Notes under the pieces: generated by a model
The model's database searches: none
The model's input: the letters and a program-made list of their open reading frames with translations, nothing else
Told to the model about the DNA's origin: nothing
Position numbers and translations under genes: made by a program
Part shown: piece by piece, positions 61,322 to 63,683 of the stretch
Layout: each line of letters starts with the position of its first letter
How positions within the stretch are numbered: the stretch's first letter is position 1
Assembly (NCBI GenBank): GCA_030549855.1
Contig: JAUQQP010000044.1
Coordinates: 1 to 64,000 of the forward strand
Source: Cyanobacteriota bacterium SRBZ.bins.94.201705
GTDB taxonomy: Bacteria; Cyanobacteriota; Cyanobacteriia; Cyanobacteriales; Cyanobacteriaceae
Length of the DNA stretch: 64,000 nucleotides
Direction of reading: 5' to 3'

Positions 61322-61990
61322 TTAGGAATTACTGGCTGCACCAGTTTGGGCGGCGACTTCTTGGGCAAAGTTGGTTTCTTTTTTCTCAATTCCCTCCCCT
61401 AAGACAAAACGGGCAAAACGACGGACTTGAATATTCTCGCCGATTTTGGCGATGTATTGTTTAATCAACTCCTCCACTGTGATAGACTGGTCTCTAATAT
61501 AGGGTTGGGAGAGGAGACACATTTCAGAGAGGCGTTTTTGTACTCTTCCCTCTACAATCTTCTCACGGATGTTTTCTGGCTTGTTAGCCAAGTCTTCCCT
61601 CCCCATTTCGATTTCTCTTTCCTTGGCTACCACTTCTTCGGGGATGTCGCTGACTTTAACATACTCTACATTAGGGCAGGCGGCAATTTGCATGGCAATG
61701 TCTTTGGCTAGGGCATGGAAATCCTCCCTACGGGCAACGAAGTCGGTTTCGCAGTTGACTTCCACTAAGACGCCAATTCTGCCACCAGTATGGATATAAC
61801 TTTCAATAATCCCCTCAGCGGCGACTCTGCCTGCTTTTTTCTCGGCAGAGGCAATCCCCTTTTGTCGTAGCCATTCTATGGCCTTTTCCATGTCTCCCCC
61901 GGTTTCCTCAAGGGCTTTTTTACAATCCATCATCCCCGCATTGGTTTTTTCTCTCAGTTCTTTTACCAGTTTCGCTGATATTTCCGCCAT
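61322..61990 (-). CDS. tsf: Elongation factor Ts
   Basis: A 222-residue guanine-nucleotide exchange factor for EF-Tu. It has the N-terminal UBA-like [55 protein letters not shown], and the C-terminal coiled-coil and core parts. Start at the ATG at 61990 ([12 protein letters not shown]); the earlier in-frame start at 62065 is unlikely. It follows rpsB with a hairpin in the 125-base gap. Confidence 0.96.
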
Positions 61991-62069
61991 ACTACCAGAA
62001 CCTCTAAATAGGGTCACTGAATAATAATGACATGATTTGACCAGATTGAAAATCCACCCACACAAAACA

Positions 62070-62115: not shown

Positions 62116-62946
62116 CTATTCACCGCCGTAGGATTCCACTAATTCCTCCTCATCCATCTCTAATTCCTCTTCTGCCACTTCTTCTTCCTCTACCTCGTAT
62201 TCACTGTCTTCAGCGGCGGATACAGAGGCGAGGAATTCATCCAGTCTCCCCTCGGCGGCTGCCTTATTATAACGGCCTTCGTAGATGGCATCGGCTAGTT
62301 TGCCTATAATCAGTTTAACAGAGCGGATGGCATCATCATTGGCCGGGATGGGATAGTCTATACCATCTGGGTCACAATTTGTATCCAACATGGACACTAT
62401 TGTCAACCCCAGCTTCTGACACTCCTTTACCGCGTTATACTCTCTCTTGGTGTCAACTATAATTACAATATCTGGCACCCGTCGCATCTCTTTAATACCG
62501 CCGAAGTACTTGCGGAGTTTTTCTAGCTTTCGCCTCAAGACGGATGCTTCTTTTTTGGGGCGTCTATCGATGGCACCACTTTCTTCTAGGATTTCCAACT
62601 CTTTTAGGTAGCTGATACGGGATTTTATGGTTTCCCAGTTAGTAAGCATTCCCCCCAGCCACCGTTGGTTGATATAATAGGAGCCACATCTTTTTGCTTC
62701 TTGGGCTACAATACCGGCTGCTTGTCTTTTTGTACCAACAAAGAGGACTTTTTTTCCCCCTTCTGCTGCTTTTTTCAGGAAGTTATAGGCTTCTTCCAAC
62801 AGTGTCGCCGTTTGTACTAAGTCGATAATATGAACCCCATTTCTGGCAGTATATATATAAGGGGCCATCTTAGGATTCCAACGGCGGGTTTGATGTCCAA
62901 AGTGGACACCACAATCTAATAATTCCTTTAGGGTGACTACAGCCAT
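62116..62946 (-). CDS. rpsB: 30S ribosomal protein S2
   Basis: A 276-residue protein with the universal start [78 protein letters not shown] and [14 protein letters not shown]. The C-terminus is extended by about 40 acidic residues (Glu-rich), as in other cyanobacteria. It is the first gene of the rpsB-tsf operon, with a folded leader upstream. Confidence 0.98.
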
Positions 62947-62965
62947 GACAATTCTCTCCTGTTTT

Positions 62966-63056
62966 CGGGTTAATCCTCCATCTGGGCAATGTGATTTCCC
63001 CTCCGGGAAACACCCGATAACCCAGATGTGCGAATTTTGACAGCCTTATCATTATA
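62966..63056 (-). promoter_or_regulatory. rpsB promoter and structured leader (possible pseudoknot)
   Basis: On the minus strand a promoter (ATGACA 63080-63075, 18 bases, TATAAT 63056-63051) predicts an RNA start near 63044, giving a leader of about 98 bases. In it CATCTGGG and CCCAGATG (63028-63021 with 62986-62979) form an 8-pair outer stem, and TTTCCC with GGGAAA (63010-63005, 63000-62995) an inner one. CGGGT (63016-63012) can pair with ACCCG (62970-62966), just before the Shine-Dalgarno, as a pseudoknot. Alternatively GGGTTA (63023-63018) can pair with TAACCC (62972-62967). Confidence 0.6.
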
Positions 63057-63089
63057 ACAGAAGAGAGGTCTTTTTGTCATGGTATACTG

Positions 63090-63683
63090 CTAGGCGGAAG
63101 CTATACTTACTTGTAAATCCTCGAAAATGACACCGGTGAGTATGGCGGCAATGAAGTTAGCATTCTCCAGTCTGGCAAGACTAAAATCGGCTTGAATTAG
63201 GATTGCTTCTCCTAAGTCAGCCTCTTGTAGGTTGGCTTCTAGGAAACAAGCCTTTTTGAATATTCCTTTTCTCAGACAGGCATAGGTTAGCTTAGCTGTT
63301 ATAAAAAAGCAATCAGAGGCATTAGCTTGCTGAAAATTAGCTCCCAGTAGCCTAGATCTGCTAAAATCACTCCCAACAAGATAGGCCCCAAAGAAGTTGG
63401 CATCTTGGGCATTGGTTACACTGAAATCGGCGTCTTCTGCATAAACCCTTGCCAGATTAGCTTTAGACAGAGTAGCCTTAGACAGATTGGCATAGGATAG
63501 ATTAGCTTGGGATAGATTGGTTTGTGTTAAATCAGCCTCTTTTAGATTGAAACCACTCAAATTCAAGCCACTTAGGTCAGCCCTACTCAAATCTGGTACA
63601 ATATGGGGGTTATCCTGGCGCCAATCATTCCACTGTTTAGCGGAAAGGGTTTTAACATACTGTAGGTGTTGTAGGTTAGCCAT
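63090..63683 (-). CDS. Pentapeptide-repeat protein (cytoplasmic)
   Basis: A 197-residue protein with no signal peptide. Residues 30-190 are A(D/N)LxX repeats (SRADLSGLNLSGFNLKEADL, LSKANLARVYAEDADF, ANLQEADLGEAILIQADF), predicted to form a quadrilateral beta-helix. The N-terminal LSAKQWNDWRQDNP resembles the short cap in related cyanobacterial proteins. No role can be inferred. Its neighbour rpsB is on the same strand, and their promoter regions are separate. Confidence 0.88.
   Translation of the reverse strand: MANLQHLQYVKTLSAKQWNDWRQDNPHIVPDLSRADLSGLNLSGFNLKEADLTQTNLSQANLSYANLSKATLSKANLARVYAEDADFSVTNAQDANFFGAYLVGSDFSRSRLLGANFQQANASDCFFITAKLTYACLRKGIFKKACFLEANLQEADLGEAILIQADFSLARLENANFIAAILTGVIFEDLQVSIASA

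Follow-up and report, generated by a model that had tools for sequence, protein, structure and literature searches.

A conserved pseudoknotted leader before rpsB in Cyanobacteria, a form of the known ribosomal protein S2 motif

The rpsB motif, an RNA structure before the gene of ribosomal protein S2, was described by Meyer et al. in 2009 (PMC2704228) for most Alpha- and Gammaproteobacteria, a few other Proteobacteria, Cyanobacteria and some Firmicutes. According to the available text of that paper, the motif has a long outer stem (P1), an inner stem (P3) of typically at least four pairs, and a pseudoknot between the junction J2-3 and a 3' extension after P1. The pseudoknot has about five pairs, three in Firmicutes, and the stem P2 is absent from Cyanobacteria or has at most three pairs. 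The same text sees no obvious resemblance to 16S rRNA; mimicry of 16S, as a common architecture reported from in-cell probing, is cited in a review (PMC10931766). In the available part of this review, E. coli uS2 represses the translation of rpsB-tsf with bS1 as a necessary helper, the operator does not include the ribosome-binding site (RBS), and pseudoknots are high-affinity targets of S1. No S2 leader is found among the 20 newer ribosomal leaders in the available text of PMC7247131. For cyanobacterial rpsB leaders, a search of mostly open access literature found no experimental study and no binding or expression data. In Rfam, the same rpsB leader seems to stand under two names, t44 (RF00127) and rpsB (RF01815), both typed as sRNA genes. 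Judging by its name and anatomy, RF01815 would be the model of the Meyer et al. motif.

The window (the whole stretch of 64,000 nt analysed here) carries rpsB on the minus strand at 62116..62946, with the ATG at 62946-62944. The gene encodes an S2 protein of 276 aa, named by recognition and by its label in the preliminary description. It is followed on the same strand by the listed open reading frame (ORF) of elongation factor Ts (tsf, 61322..62065), named by sequence recognition, and tsf is presumed to be the second gene of an rpsB-tsf operon. A promoter-like site, ATGACA-18 nt-TATAAT, is found at 63080-63051 (minus strand) as a consensus match, with 11 of 12 sigma-70-like positions. Its -10 box, TATAAT at 63056-63051, is preceded by TG, as in the extended -10 type. 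Nine bases separate the -35-like hexamer from the end of the upstream gene (63090-63683, minus strand), by eye a pentapeptide-repeat protein. A conserved block, GCTGTC in the window (63039-63044) and mostly GTTGTC in other leaders, follows the -10-like box and precedes CACA, the 5' edge of the leader. GTTGT or GCTGT was present at most 30 nt upstream in 55 of 67 non-picocyanobacterial leaders, and the block may mark the transcript start. A transcription attenuator was ruled out, as no terminator-like hairpin was found within 62900-63300; control is therefore expected at translation rather than by attenuation.

The minus strand before rpsB (63032-62944), read directly, contains an outer stem, an inner stem and a pseudoknot. 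P1 pairs CATCTGGG (63028-63021) with CCCAGATG (62986-62979) in 8 Watson-Crick pairs. P3 is a hairpin at 62995..63010, in which TTTCCC (63010-63005) and GGGAAA (63000-62995) form 6 pairs around the loop GGAG. Both stems had been given with these lengths in the preliminary description, and the reading confirmed them. The description had also paired a CGGGT loop segment with ACCCG next to the Shine-Dalgarno (SD) sequence. This pairing stands, with CGGGT at 63016-63012, ACCCG at 62970-62966, five pairs and an additional T63017-A62965, but CGGGT belongs to the junction that links P1 to P3 and not to a hairpin loop. The spacer from P1 to CGGGT has only four bases (TTAT), fitting a P2 that is absent or has at most three pairs. 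Two conserved elements, both on the minus strand, border the outer stem. CACA (63027..63030) forms the 5' edge, its second CA being the start of P1, and GGAGG (62975..62979) flanks the stem, its first G closing P1. After GGAGG come the tail AACCCG, the SD AGGAGA (62960-62955) and the start codon. The 3' strand of the pseudoknot, ACCCG, ends five bases upstream of the SD.

For comparison, 93 rpsB upstream regions were collected from 57 of 60 genomes (the window's own and 59 relatives) and from 36 cyanobacterial contigs. Three genomes yielded no leader, two of them cut at contig ends (G013, G016) and one without a match (G040). The 93 include at least one duplicate, as L033 is apparently the same contig as L013 and has the same leader. 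The whole anatomy, written as a search pattern (CACA-like ... CGGGT ... GGAGG-like ... AACCCG), was recognised in 85 leaders, and six more were placed with hand anchors, giving a set of 91. L015 and L142, the two outside this set, both with a longer P3, were later found by the covariance model R1, described below, at 64.4 and 51.2 bits. By pattern, hand anchors and R1 together, all 93 leaders carry the motif. GGAGG, as matched by the script pattern, is present in 80 of the 91; two divergent lineages have GGTTG, GGTTT or GGATT in its place.

Covariation was examined in alignment A1, which holds 47 of 67 non-redundant leaders. The other 20 were dropped by hand, mostly for a long P3 or as further picocyanobacteria, and one (L145) for neither reason. 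P1 was paired in 98.7% of the cells, and seven of its eight pairs had changed on both sides. For P3, whose stem and loop lengths vary among leaders, 88.1% of the cells were paired, with changes on both sides at all five pairs tested. The observed P1 and P3 values were matched by none of 500 shuffles (0/500) and by none of six slid versions of the stems. Covariation in relatives had been set beforehand as a check, and it was seen both in P1 and, as compensatory changes in two lineages, in the pseudoknot. The nested stem and pseudoknot before rpsB are confirmed as a real structure.

All five core pairs of the pseudoknot were kept without variation in the 47 leaders of A1, so that this alignment speaks for the core by conservation only. 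Three further pairs lie 5' of CGGGT in A1: the first is U-A in 46/47 leaders and U-G in one, the second U-A in 40/47, and the third a mixture of standard pairs in 23/47. Among the 91 leaders, uninterrupted Watson-Crick pairing through CGGGT/ACCCG extended over 5, 6, 7, 8 or 9 pairs in 5, 16, 25, 22 and 23 leaders, respectively, and thus over 6-9 pairs in 86. Changes were found in divergent leaders. In one genus, three genomes (L177-L179) carry TGGGT/ACCCA, with C-G replaced by U-A. In a second genus, L180, L182 and a third genome, L243, have CTACGGGT/ACCCGTAG, with extension pairs changed from U-A to A-U and from U-A to C-G. L235 has the G-U variant TGGGT/ACCCG. A3 is an alignment of 20 rows picked by hand. 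Of five measures taken on it for the pseudoknot, four were reached by at most one of 500 shuffles; the fifth, the count of further pair types, was not above shuffles (288/500 reached it). Four of the five core pairs are invariant even in A3, which is neutral as evidence. Most lineages thus keep the core unchanged, and two divergent lineages show compensatory changes. Each of these lineages probably represents one event, which makes two independent lines of support for the pseudoknot, not many.

The 110-nt leader folded at -37.5 kcal/mol, compared with -27.3 ± 3.5 in shuffles (z -2.9), and 3 of 200 shuffles were as good. On its own, this energy is moderately significant, and the comparative evidence is far stronger. 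A fold begun at the -10 box includes pairs with bases that probably lie outside the transcript. Starting the fold later gave a different outer fold, with P1 and P3 unchanged.

A competing pairing that uses bases of P1 and the pseudoknot had also been proposed, between GGGTTA (63023-63018) and TAACCC (62972-62967). As an alternative fold, it would turn the leader into a two-state switch. The six-base match does exist in the window, but GGGTTA occurs at the corresponding position in only 1 of the 91 cyanobacterial leaders, that of the window itself. The corresponding columns were paired in 49.6% of the cells, equal to the shuffle mean of 49.6%, without excess covariation. The competing pairing was rejected on these grounds, and a switch of this kind is highly improbable.

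The model R1 was built from A1 and therefore from cyanobacteria only; the leader of the window, one of its 47 rows, scored 72.5 bits. R1 was run over 291 genomes of the phylum. At E <= 2e-10, it matched 130 of 138 genomes inside the window's class and none of 153 outside, 117 genomes without a match being counted as outside by assumption, from the kinship order of the table. Another 22 genomes outside the class had weak matches (2e-4 to 0.01). Chance folding, or conservation of promoter and coding start at the DNA level without any RNA function, would agree with the only moderately unusual folding energy. It is refuted by the covariation of P1, P3 and the pseudoknot, and with the confinement of strong matches to the class it retains next to no probability.

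Strong matches were missing from eight class genomes; seven of these have rpsB with a readable divergent motif, and in the assembly of the eighth (G274), no rpsB match was found. In a class sample spread more evenly over families, R1 matched 50 of 59 genomes at E <= 1e-7. The remaining nine (G131, G135, G212, G214, G272, G278, G338, G339 and G349) have P1, GGGT and an ACCC tail at rpsB, and G135 also has a weak R1 match away from rpsB. The matches lie at most five bases from rpsB in all 27 genomes common to the rpsB-locus and R1 surveys. This adjacency and the divergent leaders were read by eye from tables and sequences.

Both Rfam models stayed below their cut-offs. On the window, RF01815 scored 29.3 bits (gathering score 40), and for RF00127 (gathering score 44) no match was reported. 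Among 19 other cyanobacterial leaders, the best RF00127 score was 32.1 bits, and one or the other model matched 13 in the correct place at E <= 0.1. In 59 class genomes, apparently identical to the even sample used for R1, none was above the cut-off of either model; at E <= 0.1, RF01815 matched seven and RF00127 none. In 14 control genomes, RF00127 matched E. coli and Thermotoga, above the cut-off in one of them, and RF01815 matched Caulobacter only, below the cut-off. The cut-off of RF01815, reached in none of the controls, is thus strict outside cyanobacteria too. The leader of the window belongs to the published rpsB motif and not to the Rfam models as curated. Current cut-offs hide the rpsB leader in the sampled cyanobacterial genomes, and a cyanobacterial covariance model would mend the annotation and provide simple reporter targets.

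The position of the pseudoknot relative to the start of translation is narrowly bounded. Its core 3' strand ends 13-23 nt before the start codon and, in all 67 SD-bearing leaders, 2-7 nt before the SD core. A stretch at these distances lies within the coverage of the 30S subunit. The 67 leaders with an SD core are all those of the 91-leader set outside the picocyanobacteria. By a crude ORF count over four 20-kb stretches per group, SD cores preceded 5 of 54 ORFs in family f49, here equated with the picocyanobacteria, and 11 of 54 ORFs in the second group of stretches. Their presence in 67/67 rpsB leaders is notable, because SD cores look scarce in general. All 24 picocyanobacterial leaders of the set (L042-L066 except L046, all but one from contigs named Prochlorococcus, Synechococcus or Cyanobium) keep the motif and have no SD core between pseudoknot and start codon, which excludes SD hiding as a general mechanism. 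In three leaders of genus g97, family f47 (L180, L182 and L243), an 8-pair pseudoknot overlaps the SD TAGGAG (ACCCGTAGGAG). There, to judge by the letters, pairing of the pseudoknot and of the SD would compete, as a natural case. Such variants, with the SD absent or overlapped by the pseudoknot, offer a handle on the mechanism.

Taken together, we consider it about 85% probable that the leader represents the known rpsB motif (the S2 leader, t44/rpsB in Rfam) in its cyanobacterial form, with S2 blocking 30S loading via the pseudoknot. By analogy with the described leaders, it most likely lets S2 turn down its own production. S2 in excess of free 30S subunits, probably with the help of S1, would bind P1, the junction and the pseudoknot. 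Binding would hold the pseudoknot, with its 3' strand within the stretch covered by the 30S subunit, and the held pseudoknot would keep the subunit from loading. The output of S2 would be lowered, and that of EF-Ts through the operon. Binding and repression by S2 in cyanobacteria are presumed here from the known systems, and the steric block at the pseudoknot is a proposal. A pseudoknot stabilised by S2 is the simplest model for blocking the 30S subunit, because it lies inside the stretch that the subunit covers. The steric step is weakened by the available account of E. coli, where the RBS lies outside the operator (PMC10931766).

The same conserved RNA could instead be a constitutive translation enhancer, a ribosome standby site or an mRNA-stability element, and not a sensor of S2. 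We regard this as unlikely, given the specific place before rpsB and a core common to known S2-regulated leaders. Its appeal lies in the SD-like GGAGG conserved in the leader, in the picocyanobacterial leaders that keep the structure without an SD core, and in the affinity of S1 for pseudoknots stated in the available part of PMC10931766; the literature search, which found no data on regulation in cyanobacteria, agrees with it as well. GGAGG as an obligatory standby SD was rejected, because it is not kept in the two divergent lineages, and this also argues against the wider proposal. Within control by S2, the pseudoknot could be an active gate and not only a part of the binding site, and in SD-less picocyanobacteria it could control SD-independent initiation. 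This extension, which draws on a pseudoknot that runs past five pairs, ends near the SD and overlaps it in g97, is doubtful. If true, it would mean SD-independent control by S2, a form without description in the available text on the E. coli work.

Compared with the published motif, the preliminary observation was correct, and the element has been known since 2009. A cyanobacterial counterpart had been thought new, but Meyer et al. (PMC2704228) already name Cyanobacteria. The window has the position before rpsB, the long P1, the minimal P2, the P3 and the J2-3 pseudoknot of their motif, and no anatomical difference was found in the features tested. The pseudoknot extends beyond the five pairs of the paper in the 86 leaders with longer runs. 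Added here are the wide survey of the class, the covariation of the pseudoknot, and the finding that both Rfam models stay below their cut-offs in 59 class genomes.

Leaders from outside the class share the skeleton CACAC-P1 ... GGAGG-AACC with the cyanobacterial ones. Other classes of the phylum contributed 15 leaders, of which R1 found one (L185) and six could be parsed as CAC-P1-GGAGG. At 592-693, upstream of rpsB, L185 also carries another rpsB start that has a copy of the motif to itself; this double copy may come from a mis-joined or mixed assembly, and a residue X in an ORF there points to Ns in the contig. R1 found 11 of 43 Firmicutes leaders at E <= 0.05, a threshold that two off-target matches in this set also reached. 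The Firmicutes leaders, mostly from Clostridia, share the CACAC-P1...GGAGG skeleton, many with GGTGCC and AACC. Both parts of a pseudoknot of about three pairs (GGT/ACC) were found in 25 of 35 parsed leaders, 42 having been tried. This count came from a longest-complement script, used otherwise only as a lead. The script chooses a wrong partner in many leaders of Firmicutes and of sister groups, and among 100 class leaders it overlooks 11.

The kinship to the autoregulatory S2 leader of Gammaproteobacteria, already suggested in the preliminary description, is borne out by the anatomy and by R1. In E. coli, the sole proteobacterial sequence compared, R1 found the leader, ending just before rpsB, at 18.6 bits (E 0.002). 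The E. coli t44/rpsB leader (RF00127) shares CACAC 5' of P1, GTGGAGG after P1 and the AACCC tail. It has GGGGT able to pair with ACCCC where cyanobacteria have CGGGT/ACCCG, although the partner is ambiguous, with a second GGGGT in the P3 region. Unlike the cyanobacterial form, it carries one more stem, placed between P1 and P3. The large genome sample thus confirms one S2-leader architecture common to Cyanobacteria, Clostridia and E. coli.
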